Part shown: positions 9,770 through 47,764 of the stretch, piece after piece
Layout: the number at the start of each line of letters is the position of its first letter
How positions within the stretch are numbered: the first letter of the stretch is position 1
NCBI GenBank assembly: GCA_023823795.1
Contig: CP085711.1
Coordinates: 186,001 to 250,000, forward strand
Reading direction: 5' to 3'
Source: Bacillus sp. F19
GTDB lineage: Bacteria; Bacillota; Bacilli; Bacillales; Bacillaceae
Length of the DNA: 64,000 bases
Notes under the pieces: model-generated
The model's database searches: none
The model's input: only the letters and a program-made list of their open reading frames with translations
What the model was told of the DNA's origin: nothing
Translations under genes and position numbers: made by a program

Positions 9770-11992
9770 TTGAGGAAAGGTAAGTTTTTTTGGAAGCTTT
9801 TTTCATCTTTTATTATTATTATCATTATCTATACTCTTGTTTCAGTGTTTATTTTTAACTTTAAAAATAGTCAGATAGCTGAAAATGAGAGAAGATCAAA
9901 GTATAAGACAATGATCATGCAAACAAAAGAACAAATTGACAGAACAATGGAAATGGCATTGCTTCAGCTTATACAAATAGAATCTAATCATGAATTTATA
10001 CAATATACAAAAAATACAGACGAGAATCCAGATTACTATGATATATCAAGAGTTTACAATCTATTGCAACAAGACATAACCTCTTTTTCAAATTATGAAT
10101 ATAAAATTTCAATTTATAAAAATAAGACAGGCCTTGTCATAACACCGAATGCAACTATGTCGTACCATCAATTCCTTAGTAATTTAAAGCTACCAAATAA
10201 AGAACAAAAGAAATTAGACCAATATCTTGAAAAGACGAAAATAAACTACCGTAATCAGGAAGCATTAGTTCTACCCAATGAGCACCCTAAAGATTCTTTT
10301 ACAATCATAAAAAAAGAATTACTTGATACAAACAAAGATGTGGTGTTTTTTGTAACGTTCAATACCAAAGGATATTTTCCATATTCAGAGTTAAACAATA
10401 ATGATTCCTTTTCCATTTTTTACGATAAGAATCATATATTTAATTCTTCAAATACAACATATCCTAAGAATATATTAAATAAAGTATCGAAAGAACTAGA
10501 GGAATATCAATATATTGAGAATAAAGAAAATCAATACCATTTGATACCCTCGGATACGATAAATGAGATTAATTATGCGATTAAATCTCCCGTTGTAGAA
10601 AATGGTATTATTCATCCTCATTCGATTACTAGTCTGCTATTTTTATTAGTGATTTTATTGACGGTAGGATTTGTTCTATCTTTTATGTTTATTTCTAGAT
10701 CCTATCACCCTATTAAAAAAATAGCAGAGATGTTCTCTTCACATCCTGAAAAAGATGAATTAAGCCATATTGAAAAATCCATCTACAATTTAAAGAATAC
10801 AAATGAAAAGTTAATAGAAATCATACAAACGAATGAACAATCTTTAAGAAATAATTTTATCCGTGAGTTACTAATGGGTATATTAACGTGTCAAAAAGCT
10901 GATTACTTTATTAGGAAGTATGATGTAACGGTTTTAATGAAGCCCTTCAGGATTATTATTTTTGAATTGGATTTCCAAAGAGAGCTCCATGATACTACCT
11001 TCCAAGAACGATATACAGTCTTAAAGGTGAAGGCAATTTCCTATTTAAAGGATTTATATAGCAATCACAGTGATTTTGAAATTGTGGAATTAAGTAATAA
11101 TCGATTTGTTTTACTAATGTGCGATCAAGGTTTATCTGATATGAAAGAATTGATACAATCTTATATTCTTGAAATGGAAAAAACGTTAAAATTACCTGTA
11201 ATCGCTTCGATTGGTACCTCAGTGAATACCATTGAAAAGATTGAAACTGATTTTCAAAATACTTTAGAATTACTGGAATATAAGTTTTCTATTGAGAAGA
11301 AAACGATTATTGCAAAGGAAGATGTTCAGCATCTTGTAGAAAGCAATTATTATTATCCTTTAGATTTGGAAAGGGAATTTATCTATTTTTCAATATCAGC
11401 AAAGGAAAAAGCAGAAAAAATAATCGACTTATTAATAAAAGAGAACTTGTATGAAAGAAAATTACACCAAGACACATTAACTTATTTTGTAGCTGCGCTC
11501 GATTCAACTATTCAGCGGATATTACAATCTAGGAATGAAAGGATTGAGAACCATGATAAACATAAATTATTTATTTCGCATGAATTATCTAGATTAGATA
11601 ATAAGGAAACGTTAGAAATCATCATCAGAGACAAGTTCAACCAATTATTTGATATCATTACGATAGGAAAAGAAAAAGAAAGTTCCACGATGACCGAAAA
11701 ACTTGTTCAGTATATCTATGATAACTACGAAAAAGATATATCTTTAAACGATCTAGCGGAGAATTTTAATTTGTCTTCTAGTTATATTAGTACCTTGTTT
11801 AAAACACATATCGGACAAAACTTTAAAGAATTTTTAAACCGTTACCGAATTGAAAAATCCAAAGAAATGTTCAAAAATCATCATTTCAAAGTACACCAAG
11901 TTTCGGAAATGGTTGGTTTTAATAATGTACAGACATTTATTAGGTTATTTAAAAAATATACAGGGATATCACCTGGACAATATAATGAATAA
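9770..11992 (+). CDS. Membrane-bound AraC-family sensor-regulator (YesS/YtdP-like)
   Basis: The 740-residue protein has a membrane helix near residues 8-30, a long extracellular region of roughly 260 residues, a second helix near 290-312, and a C-terminal AraC DNA-binding domain of about 100 residues (two helix-turn-helix motifs, ending IRLFKKYTGISPGQYNE). This is the layout of single-protein sensors that regulate CUT1 sugar transport loci in Bacillus and Paenibacillus. A full AGGAGG sits before the TTG start. It has its own terminator and directly precedes the permease operon at 12248, which I infer it activates when an oligosaccharide, possibly with the binding lipoprotein, is sensed outside. 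A related protein is encoded at 44182-46443. Confidence 0.88.
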   Translation: MRKGKFFWKLFSSFIIIIIIYTLVSVFIFNFKNSQIAENERRSKYKTMIMQTKEQIDRTMEMALLQLIQIESNHEFIQYTKNTDENPDYYDISRVYNLLQQDITSFSNYEYKISIYKNKTGLVITPNATMSYHQFLSNLKLPNKEQKKLDQYLEKTKINYRNQEALVLPNEHPKDSFTIIKKELLDTNKDVVFFVTFNTKGYFPYSELNNNDSFSIFYDKNHIFNSSNTTYPKNILNKVSKELEEYQYIENKENQYHLIPSDTINEINYAIKSPVVENGIIHPHSITSLLFLLVILLTVGFVLSFMFISRSYHPIKKIAEMFSSHPEKDELSHIEKSIYNLKNTNEKLIEIIQTNEQSLRNNFIRELLMGILTCQKADYFIRKYDVTVLMKPFRIIIFELDFQRELHDTTFQERYTVLKVKAISYLKDLYSNHSDFEIVELSNNRFVLLMCDQGLSDMKELIQSYILEMEKTLKLPVIASIGTSVNTIEKIETDFQNTLELLEYKFSIEKKTIIAKEDVQHLVESNYYYPLDLEREFIYFSISAKEKAEKIIDLLIKENLYERKLHQDTLTYFVAALDSTIQRILQSRNERIENHDKHKLFISHELSRLDNKETLEIIIRDKFNQLFDIITIGKEKESSTMTEKLVQYIYDNYEKDISLNDLAENFNLSSSYISTLFKTHIGQNFKEFLNRYRIEKSKEMFKNHHFKVHQVSEMVGFNNVQTFIRLFKKYTGISPGQYNE

Positions 11993-12005
11993 ATAGAGTA
12001 TGAAT

Positions 12006-12047
12006 CCCAGATTATCAATTGTTGTGATGATAATCCGGGTATTTTTT
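12006..12047 (+). terminator. Terminator after the AraC-type gene
   Basis: CCCAGATTATCA pairs with TGATAATC(C)GGG, one small bulge, then TATTTTTTG. It separates the regulator from the transport operon. Confidence 0.8.
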
Positions 12048-12198
12048 GTTTTGCAAAAGAAAGTTTAGGAAATATTCATATACTAAATATTTATAATTTT
12101 TCGAATTTATATACAAAATTTTAAAAAATGATATTTTTTATCACGGATTTAAAAAAATGAAAGTATTCGCTTTCCATATTCTAATGTAAGGTAGGGAC

Positions 12199-12212
12199 AG
12201 AAAGCGATTACA
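12199..12212 (+). promoter_or_regulatory. Candidate CcpA cre site before the transport operon
   Basis: AGAAAGCGATTACA fits the looser cre pattern TGWNANCGNTNWCA at all but the first position. It lies about 36 bases before the first permease start, a position suited to blocking transcription in the presence of preferred sugars. Confidence 0.45.
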
Positions 12213-12247
12213 AAACAGTTATTTACAAGGAGGGGGGGGGGACATTT

Positions 12248-13225
12248 TTGAAAAGTCCATTGTCTACAACTAGAAAAATAATTCTTAATTTTCAAATGGA
12301 GAAAACAGCAAGTAAATGGTATTTAGTTAGAAGGAAGATTGCAAGAGATAAATATCTCTACTTATTATTGATCCCATTTATTTTATGGTTTTTAGTATTT
12401 GCGTATAAACCGATATTGGGATTGCAGATTGCCTTTAAAGATTATAGCTTGTTCAAAGGTATAAATGAGAGTCCGTGGGTAGGATTTGAAAACTTTGGAC
12501 GATTCTTTGGATCTGAATATTTCATTAGAACATTAAGAAACACAGTACTAATCAGTTTATACAGTTTACTTTTTGCTTTTCCTGCACCTATTATTCTAGC
12601 GCTCACATTAAACGAAGTGAAAAATGAGTTGTTTAAACGATCTGTTCAAACGATTACGTATTTACCTCATTTTATATCAGTTGTAGTCATTGCAGGAATT
12701 GTGACCAACTTCTTATCCCCAACTAGTGGTATCATAAATCATTTCATTGAAATGATTGGGGGCAAGAGCAAGTATTTTCTATCTGAACCTGAATATTTTA
12801 GAACCATTTATATTTCTTCCGTTCAAATTTGGAAAGATGTTGGTTTTAATGCCATTATCTATCTTGCGGCGATTGCTGGTATTAATCCGGCATTATATGA
12901 AGCAGCAAAAATGGATGGGGCAAACAGATGGCAGCAAATGATTCATGTTACGATTCCAAGTATAATTCCAACAATTGTTATCTTGTTCATTATTAATATC
13001 GGCAATTTTTTGGAGGTCGGCTATGAGGCGATCATCTTACTTTACCAACCTTCTACCTATGAAACGGCCGATGTCATTAACACATATGTCTATCGAGCTG
13101 GATTAATGGAAGGTCAATATGAAGTTGCAGCTGCAGCGGGATTGTTTAATTCTGTGGTAGGCCTCATTTTAGTCGTTTTTGCGAACACAATGAGCAGAAG
13201 AATCACAAACAATGGGTTATGGTAG
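12248..13225 (+). CDS. ABC transporter permease, LplB/YteP type
   Basis: This 325-residue inner-membrane permease of the polysaccharide CUT1 class has about six hydrophobic helices and the cytoplasmic EAA loop EAAKMDGANRWQQMIHVTIP, which contacts the ATPase. It starts at a TTG with a Shine-Dalgarno region that runs into ten consecutive G residues, an unusual site that could vary in length. It overlaps the next permease gene by a few bases, so the two are translationally coupled. It should form a heterodimer with that product and use a shared ATPase, as none is encoded here. Confidence 0.92.
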   Translation: MKSPLSTTRKIILNFQMEKTASKWYLVRRKIARDKYLYLLLIPFILWFLVFAYKPILGLQIAFKDYSLFKGINESPWVGFENFGRFFGSEYFIRTLRNTVLISLYSLLFAFPAPIILALTLNEVKNELFKRSVQTITYLPHFISVVVIAGIVTNFLSPTSGIINHFIEMIGGKSKYFLSEPEYFRTIYISSVQIWKDVGFNAIIYLAAIAGINPALYEAAKMDGANRWQQMIHVTIPSIIPTIVILFIINIGNFLEVGYEAIILLYQPSTYETADVINTYVYRAGLMEGQYEVAAAAGLFNSVVGLILVVFANTMSRRITNNGLW

Positions 13226-14112
13226 GTGTTAAGCTATTGAAAAATATCAATATTTTGGGTCGAATAAGCTCAATTTTCATTTATTTAATCCTGGGAATCC
13301 TAGCAGTTGCCTGCTTGTATCCTTTCATTTATGTTTTATCTGCTTCCATTAGTTCAGGAGATGCTGTTAGAACAGGAAAGGTCTTGTTGTTCCCAAAAGA
13401 TATAAATTTTGAATCCTATGTCAGGGTTTTAAGTGAGCCAGGAATTTGGAAAGCATACGGGAACACCATTTTTTATACTTTGGTAGGTACCTTTGTGAAC
13501 CTAGTGCTTACTACTTGCGGTGCTTACCCGCTATCTAAAAAAAGGCTCTCTGGAAAAGCTTTTATTGCTTTTTTCGTAGCGTTTACCATGTGGTTCAATG
13601 CCGGGATTATCCCAACTTATCTAAACTTCCGGGAATTAGGCCTTTTAGATTCTCGGACTGGAATCATTGTCGGTTTTGGGATTTCGGCTTTCTTGGTGTT
13701 TATTTTAAGAACATTTTTCCAGTCTATTCCCGATTCTCTTGAAGAGTCCGCGAAAGTAGACGGAGCAAACGACTTACAAATTTTATGGAAGATATTTTTA
13801 CCTTTATCCAAACCTGCCCTCATTACTGTAGGTTTATACTATGCCGTTAGTAGATGGAACGGGTATTTTTGGGCAATGATACTCTTAAAAAATGATGATC
13901 TTATGCCTTTGCAAGTATTGTTGAAAAAAATGATAGTCGAGTTAAGTGTAAAAGAAGAGTTTATGACAGGCGTGGATTTATCTACGAAATTTTCTACTGA
14001 AACAATTATTTATGCAACAATTGTCATTTCCGTCATACCAATTGTTGCTGTCTATCCCTTCCTTCAAAAGTATTTTGTTAAAGGAACCATGATAGGCGGC
14101 ATTAAAGAGTGA
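13219..14112 (+). CDS. ABC transporter permease, YtcP/AraQ type
   Basis: The second permease subunit, 297 residues, carries six hydrophobic segments and the EAA-loop sequence EESAKVDGANDLQILWKIFLP. The ending KYFVKGTMIGGIKE is typical of the YtcP group. The ATG overlaps the stop of the previous gene. A TTG at 13237 with GGTG eight bases upstream is an alternative start. Together with the LplB-like subunit it forms the membrane channel for an oligosaccharide. Confidence 0.92.
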   Translation: MVGVKLLKNINILGRISSIFIYLILGILAVACLYPFIYVLSASISSGDAVRTGKVLLFPKDINFESYVRVLSEPGIWKAYGNTIFYTLVGTFVNLVLTTCGAYPLSKKRLSGKAFIAFFVAFTMWFNAGIIPTYLNFRELGLLDSRTGIIVGFGISAFLVFILRTFFQSIPDSLEESAKVDGANDLQILWKIFLPLSKPALITVGLYYAVSRWNGYFWAMILLKNDDLMPLQVLLKKMIVELSVKEEFMTGVDLSTKFSTETIIYATIVISVIPIVAVYPFLQKYFVKGTMIGGIKE

Positions 14113-14182
14113 AAATCATTTCTTGAAAAATGGAGTTTGGTTGCCAATAAGCAATCTTCAAATAATTGAGTGGGGGTAGAAC

Positions 14183-15745
14183 ATGAAAGGGAGAAAATTT
14201 ATTATTCCAATCTTACTTACTTCATTGCTGATGACGGGTTGTAACATGATGGCATCAAATGAAAAAAAGAACGAAACAACAGAGGAAAAAGTTGACCCAA
14301 ATAAGCCATATTTAGTGTCCAAGAAACCATCCGAGTTAACGATTCACTACAATTATTTGGATGGGAAATACGTTTTTAATGATGATTGGGCAGCGTTCAA
14401 AAAAATTAGCGAATTAACTAATGTGTCATTAAAAGGGGTTAGTTCTAAAACATCAACGAACAGTCAGGAAGCTTTTAACTTAATGATTGCATCTGGGGAA
14501 ATTCCAAATCTAGTGTATGGGTCAAAAGATGACATTAACAAATATTCAGTTGAAGGCGCTTTTTTACCTCTTGATGGCCTTATAAAAGATCACGCGCCAA
14601 ATATTCAAAAGTATTTTAAAAAATATCCAGAGCTTAAAACACTTGCTGCATCGGATGGGAAGATTTATATGATTCCATTTATCTATAGTGAAGGTACGGC
14701 AGAAGGATATTTTATCCGTCAGGATTGGTTAGATAAACTGGGTTTAAAGATGCCTGAAACCGTTGAGGACTATTATAAAGTTCTTAAAGCATTTAAAGAA
14801 AAAGACCCGAATGGCAATGGGAAAAAAGATGAAATACCATTTTTTATGAGGGAAAACTTTGCATTTAATCAGCTTGTGACTTTATGGGGAGCAAGTGAAG
14901 GGTTGTATATAGATGATGATAAAGTTCGGTTTGGTCCAATGGAAAAGGAATTCGGAGAAGCAATGGAAAACTTAGCTAAATGGTATAAAGAAGGATTGCT
15001 AGACCCTGAGATTTTTACGCGTGGAAGTGCTGCAAGGGACTATATGCTGGGTAATAACATCGGTGGATCCACACGCGATTGGTTCCCGAGTACGTCTGCG
15101 TTTAATGGTAAATTACCTGAAAAGATTCCTGGTTTTCATTTTGTGACGATGGCACCTCCAGAAAATCCAAAAGGGGAACGGGTAGAGCCAACATCTCGCA
15201 GCCCATTAACAACCGAAGGGATTGCTATTGGTTTTAAAACAGAAGACCCAGCTATAGCCATAAAATATCTTGATTTCCTCTTTACAGATGAAGGAAGAAA
15301 AATCATGAATTATGGTATTGAAGGTGTCACATATGACCTCAAGGATGGAAAACCGGTCTTAAAAGAGGAAATATTGAATAGTGAAAGTATCCCTGAATCC
15401 CTAAGGGAATATGGTGTTCAGCACTCATTCGTCTATCATCATGATTCTGAATACGAAAAACAGTTTTTGCATGAGGAAGGAGTTAAGGGTGTCGAGCTAT
15501 ATGAAAAAGGTAAATACATGAGAGAAGCTTTCCCAGTTTTGAATTTTAATAATGAGGAAGAAAAAATTGTTGCTGACAGTGGTGCCCAACTTACAACCTA
15601 TATTGAAGAAACCATGCAAAAATGGGTGCTGGGAAAAGAAAAAGTAGATCATAAAGGCTTTGTGGAAAAGTTAAAAAAACTAGGAGTCGAGAAATATATA
15701 GATGCCAATCAAGACGCTTATAACAAATATAAGAAAAATATGTAG
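14183..15745 (+). CDS. Extracellular solute-binding lipoprotein (LipO/YtcQ-like)
   Basis: The 520-residue protein starts with a lipoprotein signal ending in the lipobox LMTGC, so it should be lipid-anchored outside the membrane. The body is a group-1 sugar-binding protein of the large LipO type, with the EF-hand-like stretch DPNGNGKKDEIP that is common in this group and may bind calcium. A strong GGGGG site precedes the ATG. It lies directly after the two permeases and completes the importer. The exact ligand cannot be read from sequence. The neighbours point to an oligosaccharide with unsaturated or intact uronic acid. Confidence 0.92.
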   Translation: MKGRKFIIPILLTSLLMTGCNMMASNEKKNETTEEKVDPNKPYLVSKKPSELTIHYNYLDGKYVFNDDWAAFKKISELTNVSLKGVSSKTSTNSQEAFNLMIASGEIPNLVYGSKDDINKYSVEGAFLPLDGLIKDHAPNIQKYFKKYPELKTLAASDGKIYMIPFIYSEGTAEGYFIRQDWLDKLGLKMPETVEDYYKVLKAFKEKDPNGNGKKDEIPFFMRENFAFNQLVTLWGASEGLYIDDDKVRFGPMEKEFGEAMENLAKWYKEGLLDPEIFTRGSAARDYMLGNNIGGSTRDWFPSTSAFNGKLPEKIPGFHFVTMAPPENPKGERVEPTSRSPLTTEGIAIGFKTEDPAIAIKYLDFLFTDEGRKIMNYGIEGVTYDLKDGKPVLKEEILNSESIPESLREYGVQHSFVYHHDSEYEKQFLHEEGVKGVELYEKGKYMREAFPVLNFNNEEEKIVADSGAQLTTYIEETMQKWVLGKEKVDHKGFVEKLKKLGVEKYIDANQDAYNKYKKNM

Positions 15746-15886: not shown

Positions 15887-17755
15887 ATGACAAATGCTTT
15901 ACAAGAGCTTCATTCCAACCCTTTAAAAACAAAACAAGATGTACAAAGAATTCTTTTGACCCTTATCAAACCTTTTGAAAAGCATTATTCAAGCGGTCAT
16001 ACCCGCATTCATTTAGGCGAAACTGGAGCAGTCCATTCAAGGGAAATAGCAGGTATGGAAGCTTTTATAAGACCATTGTTGGGAATCGTTCCCTATCTTG
16101 CAGGCGGTGGGGAGCCCCCTAATTCCCTAAGTGGGATACTAAGAGGGATTGCCAATGGAACGGATCCAAATCATTGCGAATATTGGGGGGACCCAAAAGA
16201 TTATGATCAGCGTGTAGCGGAGATGCCCATTATTGCATTGGCATTAGCCTATCTTTCAAAAAAAGAGTTGAAGGAGCTTTCCGAAGGGGATAAACAAAAT
16301 ATTTATCGATGGTTATATAAAGCCAATCAAGTAAAAGTCGTTAATAACAATTGGAACTTCTTTAAAGTTGTTATTAATTTAAGTTTAAAAGAATCTGGAT
16401 TTCCATTTGACCAAAATGTGATGGAAAAAAGCCTCGAAAACATTGAAGAGTTTTATTTGGGTGACGGGTGGTATTCTGATGGCCTAACGGAGCAAAAAGA
16501 TTTTTATGTTCCGTTTGCGATCCATTTTTACAGCTTGATCTATGCAAAGTTCATGGAAAAAAGCGATCCTCAAAGGACACTGCTTTTTAAAGAAAGAGCG
16601 TTACAATTTTCAAAGGATTTTATATATTGGTTTTCAGAAGATGGTTCAACATTTCCATTTGGCAGAAGTATGACATACAGGTTTGCGCAAGGTGCTTTTT
16701 GGAGTGCACTTGCATTTGCAGAAATTGAAGAATTCAATTGGGGTATGTTGAAAGGAATGATATTGAGAAATTTGCGTTGGTGGTTCGAACGCCCGATATT
16801 TACTAGAGATGGATTGTTATCCATTGGTTACGGATACCCGAATTTAGCCATGGCGGAAAACTACAATGCCCCAGGATCTCCCTATTGGGCTTTTAAAATT
16901 TTTTTAATATTAGCTCTTCCCGATGATCATCCTTTTTGGACTTCACAAGAGGAGAAGATGCCTGATTTAAATGAAAAGTCCGTACAAAAGCATCCTGGTA
17001 TGATCATTTGCCGTGATTCAAAGCATAAACACGTATTTGCCTTAACCTCTGGGCAATATGCCGATTTTGAACCTCATCATTCTGCAGAGAAATATTCGAA
17101 ATTTGCGTATTCCAATGTTTATGGTTTCAACATTTCCAAAGGTGCTTATGGAATAACGAATACAGCACTTGATTCAATGCTTTTACTCAGTGAAAACGAT
17201 GACAATTATAGGATGAGAAGAAAATGCGAAAAAGCTGAAATATACGAAGATGTGTTATTTTCAGTGTGGAAACCTTGGCGTGATGTTTGGATAAGCACTT
17301 GGTTAATTCCGGTCTCTCATTGGCATGTCCGGGTTCATCATATTTCCACCAGACGGATTCTGAACTCAATGGAAGGCGGTTTCGCCATACCTAATGATGA
17401 AATTGAAATTTTTAAAGATAAGAATAGCTTATATGTAAATACACAACTTGGTGCTAGCGGAGTTTTGAGTCTATATGGAGATCGGAAGCCTATCGAAAAA
17501 CATGGCCAGCCTAATGCTAATTTAATAGATCCACGAATAACTTTAATACCGACACTGACAGGTAATATAACAAGTGGTGAAGCAACACTTTCTATGGCTG
17601 TCCTAGCCAATCCAGATAATGCCCTTTTCGATCATTATTGGGTGAGACCACCGAAATTTATAGAAACAAATGATCATTTCTACATTCATAATGCAGAGGA
17701 TGATCTTGTATATAAAATTGGAAAAAAGGAGCTGGGTTTATGTCACAACTTATGA
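15887..17755 (+). CDS. DUF2264 protein, candidate glycan lyase or hydrolase
   Basis: This 622-residue protein has no signal peptide, so it should act in the cytoplasm. It shows the DUF2264 pattern: NNNWNFFKVVINLSL, DGWYSDGLTEQKDFYVPFAI, and the block GRSMTYRFAQGAFWSALAFA. The N-terminal two thirds look like an alpha-helical toroid and the rest a beta-sandwich, a layout shared with several polysaccharide lyases. I chose ATG 15887 with AAAGGGA before it. The upstream in-frame ATG at 15815 lies in a hairpin arm. The stop overlaps the GH88 start, so the two are translationally coupled. I infer that it makes the unsaturated oligosaccharides that GH88 cleaves. This is not proven; DUF2264 was long a family of unknown function. 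Confidence 0.85.
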   Translation: MTNALQELHSNPLKTKQDVQRILLTLIKPFEKHYSSGHTRIHLGETGAVHSREIAGMEAFIRPLLGIVPYLAGGGEPPNSLSGILRGIANGTDPNHCEYWGDPKDYDQRVAEMPIIALALAYLSKKELKELSEGDKQNIYRWLYKANQVKVVNNNWNFFKVVINLSLKESGFPFDQNVMEKSLENIEEFYLGDGWYSDGLTEQKDFYVPFAIHFYSLIYAKFMEKSDPQRTLLFKERALQFSKDFIYWFSEDGSTFPFGRSMTYRFAQGAFWSALAFAEIEEFNWGMLKGMILRNLRWWFERPIFTRDGLLSIGYGYPNLAMAENYNAPGSPYWAFKIFLILALPDDHPFWTSQEEKMPDLNEKSVQKHPGMIICRDSKHKHVFALTSGQYADFEPHHSAEKYSKFAYSNVYGFNISKGAYGITNTALDSMLLLSENDDNYRMRRKCEKAEIYEDVLFSVWKPWRDVWISTWLIPVSHWHVRVHHISTRRILNSMEGGFAIPNDEIEIFKDKNSLYVNTQLGASGVLSLYGDRKPIEKHGQPNANLIDPRITLIPTLTGNITSGEATLSMAVLANPDNALFDHYWVRPPKFIETNDHFYIHNAEDDLVYKIGKKELGLCHNL

Positions 17756-18951
17756 ATGAATCCTTATTTAAAAAAATCCAGGATGAAGGGATTCAAAATA
17801 AAGGGCTTTTAGAAAGGCAATCAAATTTATCCCAAAAACAAGTTGAAGAAGCAATTCGATATGTCTTAAAAAAGATTGATGAAAATCTTTCTACATTCAC
17901 ACACAAATTCCCTTCATCATCTAGTGAACATTTGAACTACCGGGCAATTGAAAACATTGATTGGACGGGAAGCTTTTGGACTGGAATGCTGTGGTTGGCT
18001 TATGAGGTGACAGGAGACAATAAATATCGTGATGTTGCAGAGATCCAACTTGAGAGTTTCAGAGAGAGACTCGATAAAAAAATCCATTTGAATCATCATG
18101 ATGTTGGCTTTTTATATACCTTATCTGTTGTAAGTGCTTATAAACTCACTGGGAACAAAGAGGCAAAACAAATAGCACTAGATGCCGCTGATTTACTTAT
18201 GACCCGATATTATGATGAGGCGGGGATTATTCAAGCTTGGGGTGATTTAAATGACCCGAAACAACGAGGAAGGATCATTATTGATTGCAATATGAACCTC
18301 CCTTTACTTTATTGGGCATTTGAAGAAACAGGCAACCCAAAATATTACGATGCGGCATATAGTCATATTCAAAAAGCGGCAAATTATATCGTTCGTGATG
18401 ACGCCTCTACGTACCATACCTTTTATATGTGCCCTGAGACTGGAAAACCATTAAAAGGAGATACGAAACAAGGTTATTCTGACGAATCTTGTTGGTCGAG
18501 AGGACAGGCATGGGCTATGTACGGCTTCCCGCTAAGCTATCATTATACCAAGGATTGGCGTTTAATCGAAACGGCAAAAAAAAATACCAACTATTTTTTA
18601 AATCGTTTACCAGATGACCTTGTTTGTTATTGGGATCTAATTTTTACAGAAGGAACAGAAGAGCGGGATAGTTCTGCAGCGGCAATTGCAGCATGCGGCC
18701 TGCTTGAATTATCTAAATATTTGCCATTATCAGATGATAATAAAAGGGTTTATGAAAATTCTGCATTAGGAATTATGAGTTCATTAATGGATCGGTATAC
18801 AACAAAGGATAAACAATCAAACGGGATTTTATTACATGCTGTGTATCACAAAGGTGGAAACCTTGGCGTTGATGAGTGCTGCATTTGGGGCGACTATTTC
18901 TATTTTGAAGCATTAGTACGTCTTTCAAAAGATTGGAATTTATATTGGTAA
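17740..18951 (+). CDS. GH88 unsaturated glucuronyl hydrolase
   Basis: The 403-residue cytoplasmic enzyme removes 4,5-unsaturated uronic acid from the non-reducing end of oligosaccharides made by lyases. The two catalytic aspartates are recognisable: Asp121 in HHDVGF and Asp182 in IIIDCNMNLPLLYWA. Their 61-residue spacing matches that of the studied Bacillus enzyme (Asp88 and Asp149). SCWSRGQAWAMYG is also typical. GGAGC precedes the ATG inside the DUF2264 gene, an overlap of 16 bases. The product enters the pathway served by KduI and KduD at 24095-25778. The presence of GH88 rather than GH105 favours a glycosaminoglycan-like substrate over pectin, but this is not certain. Confidence 0.92.
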   Translation: MSQLMNESLFKKIQDEGIQNKGLLERQSNLSQKQVEEAIRYVLKKIDENLSTFTHKFPSSSSEHLNYRAIENIDWTGSFWTGMLWLAYEVTGDNKYRDVAEIQLESFRERLDKKIHLNHHDVGFLYTLSVVSAYKLTGNKEAKQIALDAADLLMTRYYDEAGIIQAWGDLNDPKQRGRIIIDCNMNLPLLYWAFEETGNPKYYDAAYSHIQKAANYIVRDDASTYHTFYMCPETGKPLKGDTKQGYSDESCWSRGQAWAMYGFPLSYHYTKDWRLIETAKKNTNYFLNRLPDDLVCYWDLIFTEGTEERDSSAAAIAACGLLELSKYLPLSDDNKRVYENSALGIMSSLMDRYTTKDKQSNGILLHAVYHKGGNLGVDECCIWGDYFYFEALVRLSKDWNLYW

Positions 18952-18979
18952 GATCAATACTTTAAAGAGGGTGATAGAT

Positions 18980-21900
18980 TTGAAAAAAATAAAAATTCCT
19001 GTTTTGGTATTAATAATCAATTTACTTTTCTTACAGTGTATATTTTCGATGGATCTTTCTTTTCCAAATAAGGTAAGTGCAGTTGAGAACTCCAGCTTCT
19101 TTTCAATATCATCAAAGGATTTAAAAGTAACATTGGATTCGGAGTTTCCGAGGGTCATAGAATATGAATGGCTAGCAAATGGAGCGAAGCTTTATGGTCA
19201 AAGTGAGAAATTATCGACTGTAAAAATAAATGGGGAAGAATATGACCCTGAAGTAAAAGTAAGGAAAAAGAAAAACCAAGCAGAGTATACGCTCTATTTT
19301 GAACCATTAAAAGTCGAAATAAATATGATCGTCCAAGTAAAAAATAATGTATTAGAAATAAAAGCACAAAAAATAAAAGAAAAAGGGTCCTTCAAAGTAG
19401 AGACTATAGAGATTCCTAACCACCGTCTATTATCGATTCGCAGCAACCAAGAAGAAGCGAAGGCGGCTACTGTTGACATAAAGTCATGGAATGGAACAGA
19501 TGAAAAGTTTTTTGATTTGAAAGATTATAATCCAGATCCATCACCTGTTCCAAAAACATATATCATTTTAAATACATCAGAACTATCGGCTTCCATTTAT
19601 AACAATGCATTTGACTTGCTTCCGGAAGATAACAAAGAGGCTTCAAATATATATGAGAAGCGATATTACTATCAAGTTTTACAAAAGGACAACTATAAGG
19701 AACTTGGGGTTTGGAATTATCCGTGGACGTATCGTGAAGTCCACAATGATAAGGAAGAAAAGATAGAACTTCCCTATTCCCGGATCGTCATTACAGCAGA
19801 TCAAAATAAAGATGGAGATGTTTCTTGGCAAGATGGAGCCATTGGATACAGAGATATTATGGAAAAGCCTAAAGGAGCCGATGTAATCAGAAATACAATC
19901 CCTCATATTGCCTATACTCGTGCAAGTCTTGCACAATGGCCATTTACAAGAACATTAGATATGGTCAAAAAGCAATATCTATACACAGATGGCTTCGGTC
20001 AATTGCTTCAATATAAAGGGCACCAAGCGGAAGGACATGACTCTAACCACCCAGATTATGGGGTTAATATTAACCCTAAAGCAGGTGGATTAAAAGATTT
20101 TAATACTTTAGTAAATGTCGCTGAAAAGTACAATACTTATGTTGGTGTCCATTTAAATCACACTGAAATATATCCGGAAGCGAAGTATTTTTCATATGAC
20201 TTAGCACGTCCGGTGGATGGTTGGAATTCACTTGATCTCTCTAAGAAAATTAATCGTTATAACGATGCTCTTGATTCAGGACCAACTGGTTTTGCCGCAA
20301 GAGTAAAAGAATTGAAAGATAATGTTCCAAACTTAAAATGGATTTATTGGGACGTCTACGATGGTGTAGGATACTCCCAATGGAAACTGGCAAAAGAGGT
20401 CATGGACAATGGACTGTTTATGGGAAGTGAGTTTGGCGGCGCCCTTGAGCGATACAGTATTTGGTATCATGTTCCGAAACAAACTAGTAAAGTTACTCGG
20501 TTTATAAAAAATCATGTAACAGATTCGTATTTCTACGATCCTATGCTATTGGAATCTAGACATGCAGGATCAATGGGATATGGGGATGACAAGAATGAGG
20601 ACCAAGGGGTAACAGGACAAACAATAAATGAACAAATAGCTATGTTCTATACAAATAACTTAATTTTTAAATATATGCAGCATCATGAGATTGAGAAGTG
20701 GACCGAAAATCAAGAAGTTCTCTTTAATGAAGGACTACAGGCAACGGTCGTTGATAAAGGTCAACCAGAAGAAACAAAAGAATATCAAATGATAAATCCG
20801 ATTGTTGAATTAAAGAAAGACGGCAAACTGATTGCAAAGTACCAAAAACAATTTAAGCGCTTTAAAGACAATAAGGGTGCCTTAACTTTGAATAAGGAAA
20901 CCATACCTCAGTTCACACAAATTTTCATCCCTTGGAGCCCAGAGGAAGAAAATAAAATTTACCATTGGAATTCGGAAGGTGGAACAACGACATGGGAACT
21001 TCCTGAGAGCTGGAAGAAAGAGAAAAAGGTTACGCTGTATCAATTAACAGATACGGGTAAAAGGTCAGTGACTAAGATTGATGTAAAAGACCAAAAGGTA
21101 ACAATTGTTGCGCAAAAGAATACACCATATGTTCTTTATAAAGAAAAATCTAATGACCCTATTCGGTCTTTAGAAAAAACTAATTTTGGCGAAGGTGGCC
21201 TTGTTAAAGACCCAGGGTTTGACAGTAGAACATTCGATAATTGGAAAGTGACTTCAACAAATGATAAGAAAGACCATGTACAAATCAAGACAAACGCAGC
21301 CGGAGATGCTTATCTTGAAGTGAAGGGGAATAATGGAGAGGGTGCAGTATTGGAACAAAAAATAAAAGGGTTAAAAGGAGGGAAAACATATCAGGCATCC
21401 GTTTGGGCTGAAGTGGAAAATGGAAGAACGGCGACTATTGGTGTAAAAGATTACGGTGATAAAGAAGTTTATAATGTAATGGAAAAATCAGATATTCCGA
21501 ATGGGTACTATAATACGTTAATGTATTCTGCGAAAACAAAGCTGCAACGATTAAAAGTCGAGTTCACAGTTCCAAAAGGTCATGGTTCTGCTTACCTTTA
21601 TTTAAAGGCTAATGCAGTAGGTGATTCCAATAGTGCATCAGCCAGCTTTGATAATATCAGAATAATCGAAATTGACAGGACGGCTAAAGGAGAACACTAT
21701 TTCTTTGAGGACTTCGAAAGTAATGAAGAAGGATGGGGTCCATTCGTACCTGTGAAGTATGTGAATAGAGCGCATCTATCTGAGACGCACACAGGCTTCA
21801 CATCGGATACGATCAATGGAAAGTATTCGTTTAAATTCCGTGAGACAAATGCGAATCCTGAGACAAGTGAAGCGGTTCGAACATTGCCAATCAATGTAAA

Positions 21901-23269
21901 GCTTGAACCAAATACAACGTATACGGTCTCATTCCCATATTGGCTAAAGACGGACAAATCTTATAGTATCGCTGTTACAAGCGGTTTTGGCAAAGAAGCC
22001 AAAGACTTATTTGAAGATAAATTAGATTACTCAAAATTTTATTATCATAAAACATTTACGACAGGACCTGAAGGTGACTATGTTTTCAGGATATTAAAGA
22101 ATGTAACAGGAATGCATGATTTTGTCTTAGATGACTTCACAGTAGATAAAGGTTCTGTAGAACTGCCTAAGGAAACAGTACCTGATCAAGACTTTAACGA
22201 TGGAGATCTCAAAGAGTGGACTGTTGCATATGGAAATGGAGATATTGAACCAGAAAATAATAAAATGCTGGTGAAGACAGACCGATATCAGACCGTTGCA
22301 TTAGATGCCAATACAAATGATATTGCAGATGGGGAGGTTGATTTTACCCTCTCGCCAAAAAATAAGAGTATGTCGGGTGTCATTATCCGGTACACCTCCC
22401 CTGAAAGTTATACCCGAATCGGATACGATTCTGAATCTGATGGATGGAGATACTGGGATGCACAAGGTCATACAGGAATATTGAATATGCCTGGTATCCC
22501 GCTCAAATATGGGATTGAGCATAAAATTAAGCTTAAATATACTGGTAGCCATTACAAATTAGTCGTGGATGGAATTACCTTGTTTGATGGCGAGATTCCT
22601 GAGTTAAAAACCACACCTGGACGGTCAGGGTTTGAAGTGCGCAACAAGTCAGAAGTCTATATAGATAATGTCACGATAAAAAATATAGGCGAAGACACAG
22701 GGAAAGCAACCCCAATTACGCATGTTCCGATCGAGATCATCGATGAAGATGGTAAAATCAATATCGATTCAAGTGATGATGCTTTTGTCCGTGACGGGGG
22801 ATTTGCCAGTATCAACTTTGGTTCAGACAGTAAAATGGAATCGAAGCTAGATAGCCCAGGTTATGTTAGAGAATCATTCGTAAAGTTTAATATTAGTCAA
22901 TTAGAAGCAAAAAAAGATCGTATACTATCGATAAAATTAAAACTTTACATGACGATTGTCGGACAGAATTCGCCAAATCAACAAATAATGCTATTAAATA
23001 GTGATCAATGGGACGAAAGCACGTTAACATGGAGCAATAAACCGGAATCTATGGGTACTACCATTGCCCAGCTTATTCCGAAACAGGGAATACATGAAAT
23101 TGATATAACACAACAAGTAAATGAGGCTATTCAACAAAATGATAAGGAATTGTCTTTCCGTTTATCTGGAACTGAGACAAGAGGAGGAGAGTCCTTCGTA
23201 TTTTATGGTACTTTTGAAAACTCTAACAAAGAATTTAGGCCTGTGATAGAAGTGAAATTGAAAGAGTAA
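18980..23269 (+). CDS. Secreted GH101-type endo-alpha-N-acetylgalactosaminidase-like enzyme
   Basis: The protein has an N-terminal signal peptide and about 1429 residues. After a beta-rich N-terminal part the barrel shows GFGQLLQYKGHQAEGHDSN, HLNHTEIYPEAKYF, and the predicted nucleophile Asp458 (WIYWDVYDG) and acid/base Glu484 (MGSEFGG). GH101 enzymes release Gal-GalNAc from O-glycans. Two galactose-binding-like modules, a LamG-like module and a C-terminal DNRLRE/CBM96-like module follow. There is no wall anchor. I chose TTG 18980 because AGAGGG is eight bases upstream; a GTG at 18971 is the alternative. It closes the operon beginning at 12248 and has a hairpin after it. It shares the catalytic spacing with the second GH101 at 54634 but has diverged. 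Its natural substrate may be a bacterial or plant glycan rather than mucin. Confidence 0.85.
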   Translation: MKKIKIPVLVLIINLLFLQCIFSMDLSFPNKVSAVENSSFFSISSKDLKVTLDSEFPRVIEYEWLANGAKLYGQSEKLSTVKINGEEYDPEVKVRKKKNQAEYTLYFEPLKVEINMIVQVKNNVLEIKAQKIKEKGSFKVETIEIPNHRLLSIRSNQEEAKAATVDIKSWNGTDEKFFDLKDYNPDPSPVPKTYIILNTSELSASIYNNAFDLLPEDNKEASNIYEKRYYYQVLQKDNYKELGVWNYPWTYREVHNDKEEKIELPYSRIVITADQNKDGDVSWQDGAIGYRDIMEKPKGADVIRNTIPHIAYTRASLAQWPFTRTLDMVKKQYLYTDGFGQLLQYKGHQAEGHDSNHPDYGVNINPKAGGLKDFNTLVNVAEKYNTYVGVHLNHTEIYPEAKYFSYDLARPVDGWNSLDLSKKINRYNDALDSGPTGFAARVKELKDNVPNLKWIYWDVYDGVGYSQWKLAKEVMDNGLFMGSEFGGALERYSIWYHVPKQTSKVTRFIKNHVTDSYFYDPMLLESRHAGSMGYGDDKNEDQGVTGQTINEQIAMFYTNNLIFKYMQHHEIEKWTENQEVLFNEGLQATVVDKGQPEETKEYQMINPIVELKKDGKLIAKYQKQFKRFKDNKGALTLNKETIPQFTQIFIPWSPEEENKIYHWNSEGGTTTWELPESWKKEKKVTLYQLTDTGKRSVTKIDVKDQKVTIVAQKNTPYVLYKEKSNDPIRSLEKTNFGEGGLVKDPGFDSRTFDNWKVTSTNDKKDHVQIKTNAAGDAYLEVKGNNGEGAVLEQKIKGLKGGKTYQASVWAEVENGRTATIGVKDYGDKEVYNVMEKSDIPNGYYNTLMYSAKTKLQRLKVEFTVPKGHGSAYLYLKANAVGDSNSASASFDNIRIIEIDRTAKGEHYFFEDFESNEEGWGPFVPVKYVNRAHLSETHTGFTSDTINGKYSFKFRETNANPETSEAVRTLPINVKLEPNTTYTVSFPYWLKTDKSYSIAVTSGFGKEAKDLFEDKLDYSKFYYHKTFTTGPEGDYVFRILKNVTGMHDFVLDDFTVDKGSVELPKETVPDQDFNDGDLKEWTVAYGNGDIEPENNKMLVKTDRYQTVALDANTNDIADGEVDFTLSPKNKSMSGVIIRYTSPESYTRIGYDSESDGWRYWDAQGHTGILNMPGIPLKYGIEHKIKLKYTGSHYKLVVDGITLFDGEIPELKTTPGRSGFEVRNKSEVYIDNVTIKNIGEDTGKATPITHVPIEIIDEDGKINIDSSDDAFVRDGGFASINFGSDSKMESKLDSPGYVRESFVKFNISQLEAKKDRILSIKLKLYMTIVGQNSPNQQIMLLNSDQWDESTLTWSNKPESMGTTIAQLIPKQGIHEIDITQQVNEAIQQNDKELSFRLSGTETRGGESFVFYGTFENSNKEFRPVIEVKLKE

Positions 23270-23278
23270 TAGCTTAGA

Positions 23279-23308
23279 AGGAGGCAACATTATCTTTGTT
23301 TGCCTCCT
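23279..23308 (+). terminator. Hairpin between the GH101 and YesL-like genes
   Basis: AGGAGGCAA pairs with TTGCCTCCT. Only short T runs follow, so termination may be partial and allow read-through to the next gene. Confidence 0.6.
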
Positions 23309-23339
23309 CTCTATTAGATAAAACGCGGAGGAACATTTT

Positions 23340-23969
23340 ATGGAAGAACAGAAAGTTTTAGGTGGTCTTTATATAATAATGAACTGGATTTCAAAGTTAT
23401 TTATTCTACAGGTCTGCTGGCTTTTGTTCATTTTAATTGGTTTGGGTATATTTGGTATTTTTCCTGCGACTGCAGCCATGTTTGCTATTAGTAGAAAATG
23501 GATTCAAGGCGAACGAGATATCCCCATTTTTTATACCTTTAAAAAGTATTATTTTAATGATTTTTCCCATGCGAATTTTTCAGGTTGGAGCATGGTAACA
23601 GTAGGGTTTATTCTATTTTTTTATCTAAGGCTATTCAAGGGGTTAGATGGAGTGATCTTTGATTTATTATTTTTCAGTATAGTTATTCTGTCGAATATTT
23701 ACATCTTCATGTGGTTACTTTGGGCACCTGTGTTTGTCCATTTTCAATTGTCAATTATCCAAATGTTTAAAACATGTTTTCTGCTTACGTTAGGAAACCC
23801 ATTCCATGCAATCGCAATGTTATCAAGCTGCGGACTATTTTACCTTTTGGTGAAGATGATACCTGGTTTAATTCCTTTCTTGAGTTTTAGTGTACTCGCT
23901 TTTGTACTCATGTGGTTTTCCTTTCAAATATTTAATAGAACGAGACACAGCGGAGAAGGAATAACGTAA
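23340..23969 (+). CDS. YesL-like DUF624 membrane protein
   Basis: A 209-residue protein with about five hydrophobic helices and the opening pattern of DUF624 (IGLGIFGIFPATAAMFAISRKWIQGE). Such genes travel with CUT1 importers and AraC-type regulators in Bacillus; their molecular role is not established, though accessory transport or sensing is often proposed. It follows the GH101 gene after a weak hairpin and probably ends the operon. AGGAG lies shortly before the ATG. Confidence 0.88.
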   Translation: MEEQKVLGGLYIIMNWISKLFILQVCWLLFILIGLGIFGIFPATAAMFAISRKWIQGERDIPIFYTFKKYYFNDFSHANFSGWSMVTVGFILFFYLRLFKGLDGVIFDLLFFSIVILSNIYIFMWLLWAPVFVHFQLSIIQMFKTCFLLTLGNPFHAIAMLSSCGLFYLLVKMIPGLIPFLSFSVLAFVLMWFSFQIFNRTRHSGEGIT

Positions 23970-24094
23970 TATGCCGGAGGAGATAGATTTACTGTTGAAT
24001 AATCAGTGGTTATTAAAATAGAACCTATTCTAGGACTGAGCTAGGGAAAATTTATAGGACCATTAATATTTATCAAAAAAGGAGGATACAAATA

Positions 24095-24925
24095 ATGGAA
24101 AGACGTTATTCGGTTCATCCAGAACATGCAAGAACTTTTAATACAGAGGAGCTTCGAAAACACTTCCTCGTCGAAGATTTATTCATCTCAGGTGAAATTA
24201 AGCTAACTTATTCAATGGAAGATCGCGTGATTATTGGTGGAATCACACCTTCTACTGAAGCACTTTATTTAAAGGGAAATGATGAGATTAAGGCTACTTA
24301 TTTCCTGGAAAGACGTGAAGTTGGAATAATAAATGTGGGTGGAAGAGGTTCTATCAAGGTAGATGGAGAAGAATACGTTCTTGAAAAAAAAGATTGCTTG
24401 TATATCGGCCTTGGGAAAAAGGAATTGGTTTTCTCCAGTGATTCAGAGGATCAGGTCGCGAAATTTTACATAATATCTGCTCCAGCACACAAAGAATATC
24501 CAGTTCAAAAAGCATCCTTTAAAGAAAACCATGGAGATGAGTTAGGTACGAGAAAAAATGCCAATGAGAGAGTCATCCGTCGTATGATTCATCACGAAGG
24601 TATTCAAAGCTGTCAAGTGGTAATGGGTCTAACGCAACTGAGTGAGGGGAGTGTTTGGAACTCGATGCCGACACATGTTCATGACCGTCGTATGGAAGTG
24701 TACTTATATATTGATCTTGATAAAGAATCAAGAATGTTCCACTTCATGGGAGAGCCAGATCAAACACGTCATATTGTGATGAAAAATGAACAGGCTGTGA
24801 TTTCTCCACCATGGTCGATTCATTGTGGAAGTGCCACTAGTAACTATGCGTTCATCTGGGGAATGGCTGGTGAAAACAAAACATACACCGATATGGACCT
24901 GGTGAAAATGGATGACATCCGTTAA
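24095..24925 (+). CDS. kduI: 5-dehydro-4-deoxy-D-glucuronate isomerase
   Basis: This 276-residue cupin enzyme converts 4-deoxy-L-threo-5-hexosulose uronate, the spontaneous product of unsaturated uronic acid, to 3-deoxy-D-glycero-2,5-hexodiulosonate. The zinc ligands of KduI are visible in MPTHVHDRRMEVYLYIDL, with a later His in PPWSIHCGSATSNYAFIWGM. The length matches the family. AAAGGAGG precedes the ATG. KduD follows directly. Its location after the GH88 operon links the two and explains how the unsaturated uronate is used. KdgK and KdgA, needed to finish the route, are not in the window. Confidence 0.95.
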   Translation: MERRYSVHPEHARTFNTEELRKHFLVEDLFISGEIKLTYSMEDRVIIGGITPSTEALYLKGNDEIKATYFLERREVGIINVGGRGSIKVDGEEYVLEKKDCLYIGLGKKELVFSSDSEDQVAKFYIISAPAHKEYPVQKASFKENHGDELGTRKNANERVIRRMIHHEGIQSCQVVMGLTQLSEGSVWNSMPTHVHDRRMEVYLYIDLDKESRMFHFMGEPDQTRHIVMKNEQAVISPPWSIHCGSATSNYAFIWGMAGENKTYTDMDLVKMDDIR

Positions 24926-25001
24926 ATGATACTCTCCCTTAAACGAGAATAAGTTTGATTAAAAAAATGAAATCCGATCCTAATTTAGGAGGAGTTAAAG
25001 T

Positions 25002-25778
25002 ATGGACTTAACAGAGTTTTCGTTAGACTTATTTAAATTAGATGGTAAAGTAGCCATTGTAACTGGTGGAGGGACAGGACTCGGTCAAGGATTTGCAGTT
25101 GCACTAGCAAAAGCTGGTGCCGATCTTTTTATCGTAACACATAAACACGAATGGGAAGAAACAAAGAGATTAATAGAATATGAGGGTTGTAAAGTAGAAT
25201 TCCACCAAACGGACTTAAGTAAAAAAGAAAATATTGATGTTGTTGTGAAGCATTGTATGGATGTATATGGGAGGGTAGATATACTCGTTAATAATGCTGG
25301 AACGATTCGTCGCGCTCCTTTGCTAGAATACCAAGATGAGGATTGGAACGCTGTCATGGATCTTAACTTAAATGCTGTATATTATTTAAGTCAAAGAATC
25401 GCGAAAATCATGAAAGAGCAAGGTGGCGGAAAGATAATTAACATTGCCTCTATGCTGACGTTTCAAGGTGGGAAATTTGTGCCCCCTTACACGGCGAGTA
25501 AACATGGTGTAGCTGGATTAACCAAGGCCTTTGCGAATGAATTAGCGGAACATAATATTCAAACTAATGCAATTGCGCCAGGATACATTGCCACATCGAA
25601 CACAGAACCTATTCGTCAAGATGAATCTCGTAATAAAGAAATTCTCTCTAGAATTCCAGCAGCGAAATGGGGTAATCCATTTGATTTATTGGGAGCTGTT
25701 GTTTTCTTATCTAGCCGTGCTTCAGATTATATGAATGGTCACATACTAGTTGTTGACGGTGGCTGGTTAGCGAGATAG
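25002..25778 (+). CDS. kduD: 2-dehydro-3-deoxy-D-gluconate 5-dehydrogenase (KduD)
   Basis: A 258-residue short-chain dehydrogenase with the cofactor motif TGGGTGLGQG, NNAG, and the catalytic YTASKH. The ending GHILVVDGGWLAR is typical of KduD. It reduces the KduI product to 2-keto-3-deoxygluconate with NAD(P)H in the cytoplasm. It lies 76 bases after kduI with an AGGAGG site, so the two form an operon. The DNA after the stop holds a relic of an iron alcohol dehydrogenase and then a strong terminator. Confidence 0.94.
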   Translation: MDLTEFSLDLFKLDGKVAIVTGGGTGLGQGFAVALAKAGADLFIVTHKHEWEETKRLIEYEGCKVEFHQTDLSKKENIDVVVKHCMDVYGRVDILVNNAGTIRRAPLLEYQDEDWNAVMDLNLNAVYYLSQRIAKIMKEQGGGKIINIASMLTFQGGKFVPPYTASKHGVAGLTKAFANELAEHNIQTNAIAPGYIATSNTEPIRQDESRNKEILSRIPAAKWGNPFDLLGAVVFLSSRASDYMNGHILVVDGGWLAR

Positions 25779-25995: not shown

Positions 25996-26037
25996 AAAAA
26001 TACTCTGGGGATGAGATATTCTCCAGAGTATTTTTTC
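25996..26037 (+). terminator. Terminator after the kduID region
   Basis: ATACTCTGG pairs perfectly with CCAGAGTAT, the stem being extended by one C-G pair, and TTTTTTCTTT follows. Confidence 0.88.
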
Positions 26038-34747: not shown

Positions 34748-34842
34748 TTTTATATTATAATAGTAGAAACACGTCACAAATCGAATTGATAAATGTTATT
34801 TCAATATGCAATTTGATGTATAATAAGCTTAAGGAGCACGAT

Positions 34843-44014: not shown

Positions 44015-44053
44015 ATTCATATGAATTTAAAACGGGAGGGAAGCTAGTGAACT

Positions 44054-44099
44054 AAAACCCGAATAATAGATAAATAAAAATAGTCCTTATCGGGTTTTT
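44054..44099 (+). terminator. Terminator after the GH35 gene
   Basis: AAAACCCGA pairs with TCGGGTTTTT across a long AT-rich loop, and the right arm runs into the T tract. A second tight hairpin, ACTCCGG-CTAA-CCGGAGT, lies at 44117-44134 between the converging genes. Confidence 0.75.
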
Positions 44100-47747: not shown

Positions 47748-47764
47748 AAAAGGAGGGAGCATGT

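Follow-up and report, generated by a model that had tools for sequence, protein, structure and literature searches.

How does a bacterium supply an unsaturated glucuronyl hydrolase (UGL) with its substrate when the operon that encodes this enzyme holds no polysaccharide lyase? The question is raised by a locus of Bacillus sp. F19 in the window, the stretch of 64,000 nucleotides analysed here (bases 186001–250000 of contig C2, 507,307 bp long, in a genome of 5.59 Mb on two contigs). Ten genes, all on the plus strand, lie in the order AraC regulator, permeases perm1 and perm2, binding protein, DUF2264, GH88 (the hydrolase), GH101, DUF624, KduI, and KduD. An earlier note on this DNA predicted a glycan with both N-acetylgalactosamine (GalNAc) and uronic acid, and for a GH101 gene accompanied by DUF2264, GH88, and Kdu genes this does appear to be the best reading. 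The operon is read here, with a rough probability of 0.6, as a catabolic route for an acidic glycan that is joined through alpha-GalNAc and ends in glucuronic acid (GlcA); its DUF2264 protein is, by homology, most likely a beta-D-glucuronate dehydratase and not a chain-cutting lyase.

In the proposed route, secreted GH101 would cut the alpha-GalNAc bond and release an acidic oligosaccharide, its sugar site (an arginine near the putative −3 subsite, and a lid tryptophan replaced by serine) being predicted to accept a uronate-bearing glycan. An ATP-binding cassette (ABC) importer of the AlgQ/Smon0123 type would, judging by its family, take up the oligosaccharide. The cytoplasmic DUF2264 protein would then remove water from C4–C5 of the terminal saturated GlcA, giving delta-4,5-GlcA on an unbroken chain, and GH88 would hydrolyse this residue off the oligosaccharide. 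Both KduI and KduD of the Kdu route are equivalogs that score above their NCBIfam cut-offs.

The open reading frames (ORFs), families, coordinates, and gene names of the locus stand as the earlier note gave them, and the regulator, permeases, and binding protein (9770–15745) that precede DUF2264 are an addition to it. KduI and KduD do follow GH101, but not directly as had been stated, the DUF624 gene lying in between. The genes are as follows.

9770..11992, plus strand: AraC-family regulator of 740 amino acids (aa), likely the operon regulator (Pfam HTH_18, 66 bits)
12248..13225, plus strand: ABC permease 1, perm1 (Pfam BPD_transp_1)
13219..14112, plus strand: ABC permease 2, perm2, overlapping perm1 by 7 nucleotides (nt) (Pfam BPD_transp_1)
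14183..15745, plus strand: solute-binding protein of the AlgQ1/AlgQ2 and Smon0123 kind (phmmer against PDB)
15887..17755, plus strand: DUF2264 protein (PF10022 and PF20938), predicted cytoplasmic beta-D-glucuronate dehydratase of the 'GH154' kind (Pfam, PDB, residues)
17740..18951, plus strand: GH88 unsaturated glucuronyl hydrolase (Pfam GH88, 78 bits; UGL entries in PDB)
18971..23269, plus strand: divergent GH101 of 1432 aa, probably secreted, with a C-terminal CBM96/DNRLRE module (Pfam GH101, 230 bits, and other GH101 domains)
23340..23969, plus strand: DUF624 protein of 209 aa (Pfam DUF624, 79 bits)
24095..24925, plus strand: KduI, 5-dehydro-4-deoxy-D-glucuronate isomerase (NCBIfam equivalog PRK00924, 431 bits, cut-off 250)
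25002..25778, plus strand: KduD, 2-dehydro-3-deoxy-D-gluconate 5-dehydrogenase (NCBIfam PRK06935, 452 bits, cut-off 369)
25996..26035, plus strand: terminator-like stem-loop of 16 pairs with a T tail, a possible operon end (consensus match only)

The genes from perm1 to KduD are presumed to be co-transcribed. Intergenic gaps across them run from −16 to +125 nt with the DUF2264 ORF opened at 15815, and the gap before DUF2264 grows to as much as +141 nt if its start is at 15887; the AraC gene lies 255 nt from perm1. The overlap of DUF2264 with GH88 is exactly the 16 bases (17740–17755) that had been reported. Terminator-like hairpins matched ten times, against a mean of 9.9 in shuffled sequence.

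The DUF2264 protein as a candidate dehydratase

The DUF2264 and DUF2264_C domains score 412 and 158 bits in Pfam (the cut-off of PF10022 is 25). The ORF can open at 15815 (646 aa) or at an ATG at 15887 (622 aa); the second, chosen in the earlier note, is the better start, since a ribosome-binding-site-like AAAGGG lies just upstream of the ATG and two-domain relatives align from residue 15–48 of the long ORF. Three PDB matches are significant with phmmer: 8oi4 (E 1.3e-24), deposited as a beta-galactosidase, and 9o4u (5.9e-22) and 9nwf (4.2e-21), which are the Bacteroides caccae enzyme BcGDH and a BcGDH R285A complex. A 320-aa stretch of BcGDH itself scores 373 bits on PF10022 and is identical to the window's DUF2264 in 93 of 327 columns (28%). 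All ten active-site residues of BcGDH (E74, R78, N176, N177, W178, F181, Y229, R285, Y289, and Y354) are kept, corresponding to E82, R86, N178, N179, W180, F183, Y231, R284, Y288, and Y350 in the numbering of the 646-aa ORF, and nine of the ten columns are invariant across 30 DUF2264 sequences, the exception being N178. A single-sequence AlphaFold model gave a mean predicted local distance difference test score (pLDDT) of 37.3, and the fold claim rests on homology.

BcGDH, formerly 'GH154', was described in 2025 in the Journal of Biological Chemistry as a beta-D-glucuronate dehydratase that converts a terminal saturated GlcA into an unsaturated residue (PMC12269599; this paper and the others cited here are drawn on from the parts of their texts that were available). 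The chemistry is a beta-elimination in which water is lost from C4 of the terminal GlcA and the glycosidic bond stays intact, with the same 232-nm signal as lyases give; on chondrosine, absorbance at 232 nm rose, a dehydrated mass was detected, and the product was then a substrate for GH88 (PMC12269599). Ten alanine mutants had no detectable activity, with the authors' reservation that chondrosine is a poor substrate and small effects may thus pass for dead mutants (PMC12269599). By homology, the window's protein would carry out a two-tyrosine beta-elimination, with Tyr231 as base, Tyr288 as acid, and Arg284 assisting.

Two other activities can be weighed at this point. The earlier note had a cytoplasmic DUF2264 lyase feeding GH88; that DUF2264 feeds GH88 is still the best explanation, but a true lyase is very unlikely. 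The second domain of the protein speaks for it, as does the resemblance of the proposed BcGDH chemistry to that of the alginate lyase Alg17C; however, both members shown to dehydrate act on terminal GlcA, from which only water can leave (PMC12269599), and the residues kept in the window's protein are those of the dehydratase pocket. Least probable of all is the original 'GH154' annotation, a beta-glucuronidase or beta-galactosidase. The best PDB match is deposited under the latter name, and BT_3677 and 8OI4 have both been reported as glycosidases; the glycosidase activity of BcGDH, however, was attributed to probable contaminants, LacZ among them, and was gone after expression in a LacZ-free host and further purification, while, in the text available, no free GlcA was released from chondrosine and the pocket contained no glycosidase-like acid/base pair (PMC12269599).

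Linkage to GH88 joins BcGDH homology and the ten kept residues as the third ground for the dehydratase reading. In a sample of 398 genomes of the class, 35 DUF2264 matches (E 1e-20 or better) outside the window's own genome occurred in 29 genomes, and 25 of the 35 genes had a GH88 match (E 1e-30 or better) within 5 kb, always on the same strand; for the rest none was listed. A rough chance expectation, from chance placement in 6-Mb genomes, is about 0.14, and the counts are lower bounds since at most three to four candidates were scored per genome. The linkage had already been noticed by the BcGDH authors with STRING (PMC12269599), and is now seen in Bacilli. The presence of GH88 without a lyase would thus be explained, as DUF2264 could supply the unsaturated residue that GH88 needs.

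The closest known counterpart is BcGDH with GH88 in polysaccharide utilisation locus (PUL) 25 of B. caccae, which shares the PF10022 domain, the ten active-site residues, and the GH88-linked gene; the window's protein differs in its 28% identity and its extra DUF2264_C domain (a second domain is reported for BT_3677), and the window has ABC import instead of a PUL and lacks PL35 (PMC12269599). With the ulvan dehydratase P29_PDnc, too, dehydration of a terminal uronate prepares the substrate of an unsaturated uronyl hydrolase, in that case GH105, but the protein belongs to an unrelated family and acts on a different glycan (PMC8511951, as described in PMC12269599). The window's DUF2264 probably carries out known chemistry in a new setting.

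No match to DUF2264 was found in viral contigs, nor under that name in the literature searched, and the available text of PMC12269599 contains no 'DUF' word; the link between BcGDH and DUF2264 is therefore made here by sequence. One literature match to the family identifiers (PMC3085309) was set aside, as it refers to a Plasmodium gene number. COG4289 is presumably the same family as DUF2264. In Vibrio vulnificus, the COG4289 protein VV2_1105 appears without a function in a gene table, beside arylsulfatase genes (PMC3091676), which would fit a role on uronate or sulfated glycans.

GH88, import, and lyases in the genome

Among PDB entries, GH88 is closest to streptococcal UGL (3anj and 2zzr, E 6e-121 to 7e-121) and also matches 1vd5 (E 5.5e-107), which we take to be the enzyme of Bacillus sp. 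GL1. Alignment to the streptococcal enzyme, whose catalytic pair is presumably numbered D115/D175, shows both aspartates kept as Asp121 and Asp182. The motif for 6-sulfated glycosaminoglycans (GAGs) in streptococcal UGL, taken here to be the sulfate-recognition motif R-//-SXX(S)XK, is absent, the aligned residues being K and H-K-G-G-N-L, and a non-sulfated substrate is therefore likelier. This gene is the sole GH88 match in the genome at E 1e-30 or better, with three to four candidates scored per genome.

The earlier note saw no classical lyase. This is true of the operon, where no classical polysaccharide lyase domain was found in the ten proteins (Pfam and NCBIfam, E 0.001); it does not extend to the genome, which has one PL8 lyase on the other contig (C1:1547260). 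Heparinase II/III gave no match in the genome, other lyase families not having been searched. The PL8 gene adjoins a gene for a pectate-lyase-like (RHGA/epimerase) protein (L215:7210-10843).

The binding protein matches AlgQ2 (4tqu, E 2.8e-124), 5xs8 (7.9e-107), and 5gub (1.7e-106) with phmmer, the last of these being Smon0123, whose ligands are unsaturated chondroitin disaccharides (PMC5430744). The GAG clusters known from Streptococcus and Streptobacillus, which comprise a lyase, UGL, an isomerase, and a reductase, have GH88, KduI, and KduD in common with the window, and the Streptobacillus cluster has, in addition, an ABC importer whose binding protein is homologous; the window operon differs in having a predicted dehydratase and GH101 in place of a lyase (PMC5430744). 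A gene for 2-keto-3-deoxy-6-phosphogluconate (KDPG) aldolase lies on C1, together with major facilitator superfamily (MFS), PfkB-kinase, and LacI genes.

A divergent GH101 clade

An alignment query of genome contigs retrieved at least 506 confirmed GH101 relatives, 79 loci of which were kept; a single-sequence query of the same contigs found no relative. The core alignment holds 122 rows, from which 11 duplicate catalytic cores were removed, and includes the window's GH101 as L031. Numbering is anchored on D764 of a streptococcus-like row, whose residues 616, 618, 796, 868, 1156, 1253, and 1254 match those of SpGH101 in PMC12550630 or in PDB titles. The catalytic residues D764 and E796 are kept in the window's enzyme, together with D658 and the multi-domain fold. 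The role of D658 in SpGH101, and the numbering of D658, W724, and W726, are taken here as assumptions. The hydrophobic N terminus, read by eye, suggests that the protein is probably secreted. All positions below are on the plus strand and derive from the alignment.

20039..20041, plus strand: Asp357, equivalent to SpGH101 D658
20222..20230, plus strand: Trp418, kept, and Ser420, which replaces the second lid Trp (SpGH101 W726)
20351..20353, plus strand: Asp461, catalytic nucleophile, equivalent to SpGH101 D764
20429..20431, plus strand: Glu487, catalytic acid/base, equivalent to SpGH101 E796; the lid loop that follows (motif 2) is shortened
19913..19921, plus strand: Tyr315 and Arg317, equivalent to SpGH101 M616 and F618 at the putative −3 subsite (subsite from PMC12550630)

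The window's GH101 forms a clade of four with enzymes of three Paenibacillus (49%–52% identity; FastTree support 1.0). Tyr616, Arg618, and Ser726 occur in all four members, and in only one, none, and one, respectively, of 107 other distinct cores. The canonical two-tryptophan lid with its motif-2 W...Y loop is thus altered in the window's enzyme, the second tryptophan being serine and the loop being shortened. Placement of Arg317 near the putative −3 subsite follows from the alignment to SpGH101 and is accordingly provisional. In SpGH101, the −2 galactose (Gal) is bound through its C3 and C4 hydroxyls by K1156, E1253, and D1254 (PMC12550630); all three contacts appear lost in the window's GH101, where T or Y, Y or a gap, and V are aligned, depending on the alignment. 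The clade's CBM96 module is found in none of 69 other GH101 ORFs (the 79 loci less seven without a usable GH101 ORF and the three clade relatives; some ORFs are incomplete). As read from the alignment, this altered clade is beyond what the earlier note could see. One GH101 outside it, L111, also has Ser726 in the lid, together with Gly868.

Compared with the core-1 O-glycanases SpGH101 and EngBF, the window's enzyme thus has serine for the second lid tryptophan, a shortened lid loop, M616Y, F618R, no SpGH101-type Gal contacts, and a CBM96 module. Changes of specificity at this site have precedents. In laboratory work on SpGH101, residues M616, F618, K1156, and D1254 were selected as surrounding the putative −3 subsite, and Q868G combined with changes at E1253, K1156, M616, and D1254 shifted the enzyme from T-antigen towards the acidic sialyl-T-antigen (PMC12550630). 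POGases are natural GH101 enzymes that accept sialyl core 1 and, like the window's, differ at the −3 site; POGases such as POGase AS, however, keep both lid tryptophans (AWGWMNQ) and the second motif, whereas the window clade has lost the second tryptophan and part of the loop (PMC11861894).

Neighbours of GH101 and the likely glycan

The 79 loci were compared with up to 10 kb on each side of GH101, contig ends shortening some. By tblastn, none contains DUF2264, one contains GH88 (L159), and one contains KduI (L167), which bears out the earlier remark that GH101 and GH88 are not a standard pairing. In the three clade relatives (L136–L138), an AraC-like gene and a like permease pair lie near GH101, the permeases being 45%–47% identical to perm1, and in each of the three a gene for a uronate lyase lies no more than 7 kb from GH101. 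In L137 and L138 this is a PL33 lyase (E 3.7e-125 and 9.1e-136 to 8r73; 60% identical to each other); L136 has a heparinase III-like protein (4mmi, E 1.8e-41) and a PL8 lyase. Entry 8R73 belongs to a study of PL33, whose members cleave GAGs or gellan (PMC11848413). Since the relatives have a lyase near GH101, DUF2264 and GH88 would occupy the place of the lyase in the window.

Among the 76 remaining loci, a single search with the catalytic part of PL8 found this lyase in four (L171, L196, L198, and L210). The contrast between uronate lyases in three of three relatives and PL8 in four of 76 controls is no more than suggestive, since the clade was selected post hoc, its members share ancestry, and the 76 controls include 15 loci shorter than 15 kb. 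Heparinase hidden Markov models (HMMs) found nothing in the 76 control loci, although they are insensitive and did not find all of one another. Pfam scans of the controls (the last 55% of 176 ORFs of 480–950 aa from 67 of the 76 loci, with 25 families listed) left room for at most two heparinase members in the first half and at most one in the second.

Each relative's genome encodes one DUF2264 protein (388–405 aa) away from GH101, with GH88 directly adjoining in two of the three. The GH88 proteins closest to the window's are those of Soil787 (67% identity) and P. aceris (63%); in one of these genomes the gene and GH101 share a contig and are about 64 kb apart, and in the other its neighbours are a heparinase-domain gene and a similar pair of permeases.

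The activities and substrates of the window's enzymes are predicted from their sequences; for relatives, the literature documents the dehydration of terminal GlcA, the UGL activity, and the steps of the isomerase and the reductase. The most likely substrate is the glucuronyl core-1 O-glycan GlcA-beta1,3-Gal-beta1,3-GalNAc-alpha-Ser/Thr, with GlcA-beta1,3-GalNAc-alpha as a close alternative and others possible. The glucuronyl-T antigen is present on Drosophila O-glycans (PMC4808802). No galactosidase for the Gal-GalNAc core was found among the operon proteins with Pfam and NCBIfam, which favours GlcA-GalNAc or a sharing of the task with other genes.

A less likely alternative is that two substrates of one proteoglycan are used: DUF2264, GH88, and the Kdu enzymes would act on GAG oligosaccharides such as chondroitin, and GH101 would remove mucin-type O-glycans attached separately to that core protein. 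An aggrecan proposal of this kind exists for B. caccae PUL25, which contains BcGDH, GH88, and putative O-glycopeptidases (PMC12269599); moreover, genes for PL33, PL8, and heparinase-like proteins are found in the clade relatives, the importer is similar to a protein that binds GAG disaccharides, and the genome has PL8. This proposal leaves the clade-specific Arg618 and Ser726 unexplained, however: it calls for nothing beyond a core-1 enzyme of the ordinary kind, and the window already has one GH101 with the usual lid, at 54634–58797. Less likely still is that GH101 cuts within a polysaccharide, of bacterial, plant, or algal origin, that contains both alpha-GalNAc and GlcA. The CBM96 module confined to the clade among the ORFs compared fits such a polysaccharide, CBM96 being a family founded on an alginate binder. 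PL33 members cleave gellan too (PMC11848413), but the GH101 enzymes described in the available literature act on O-glycans.

Several observations weigh against the proposed route as a whole. Neither DUF2264 nor GH88 lies within 10 kb of GH101 in any of the three clade relatives, and the link between GH101 and dehydration therefore has its only basis in the window. The binding protein near the relatives' GH101 shares only some 26% identity with its counterpart in the window, PL8 also occurs in the control loci, the operon lacks a galactosidase, and GH88 could instead serve the genomic PL8 lyase. Loss of the Gal contacts is not peculiar to the clade, as Asp1254 is present in only 53 and Glu1253 in 11 of the 107 other cores, and clade member L138 retains Asp1254; outside the clade, a smaller alignment shows Gly868 in 8 of 48 sequences and the short lid loop in 10 of 48, and in the larger one Gly868 is present in 2 of 107. 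In SpGH101, D1254N by itself harms activity on both T- and sialyl-T-antigen (PMC12550630). DUF2264 has only the 28% identity to BcGDH given above, and known members differ in substrate, BcGDH acting on chondrosine and BT_3677, the founding GH154 member, on methyl glucuronate and not chondrosine (PMC12269599).

Other GH101 loci and the rest of the window provide further observations. A conserved protein of about 800 aa is encoded between a binding protein and GH101 in L115 (6081-8489), with homologues in L116–L120, across two genera (64%–88% mutual identity); the L115 copy has no Pfam or convincing PDB match, and the GH101s of these loci have I or V at 1254 and E at 797. In L117 (13159-19494), GH101 is followed about 5–7 kb downstream by KduI and KduD, and genes for a sulfatase and an MFS protein lie in the interval. 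The window's second GH101 (54634–58797), with the usual lid residues, lies 31 kb from the first within a region (42266–58797) that also contains GH43, ABC transporter, AraC regulator, and GH35 genes; its identity of 85%–86% to GH101 enzymes from two genomes of a different family suggests horizontal transfer. The stretch separating the two GH101 loci contains a transposase (rve; 30998–31768), a serine resolvase (34190–34747), and a PDDEXK-type transposase (34786–35667). Three calcineurin-like phosphoesterase proteins are encoded at 1–1632, 3782–7900, and 36409–38283, one with NAGPA phosphodiester-glycosidase and purple-acid-phosphatase N-domains and one with DUF4073.

Through this analysis PF10022, which the Pfam copy used still labels 'uncharacterized DUF2264', gains a function that can be tested in the class Bacilli; the case is also a warning against assuming a lyase wherever a GH88 gene is found. 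A more specific proposal is tentative, its odds somewhat short of even: the clade would represent a new GH101 specificity that releases GlcA-Gal-GalNAc or GlcA-GalNAc O-glycans, with the carboxylate read by Arg618, coupled here to a lyase-free branch of dehydratase, GH88, and Kdu enzymes in a complete foraging route for glucuronylated (for example, insect) O-glycans. No O-glycanase releasing glucuronylated O-glycans appeared among the literature matches listed. If the proposal is true, GH101 would supply an enzyme that releases such glycans intact, and the clade would offer a parallel in nature to the directed evolution that adapted SpGH101 to sialyl-T through changes at the −3 subsite.

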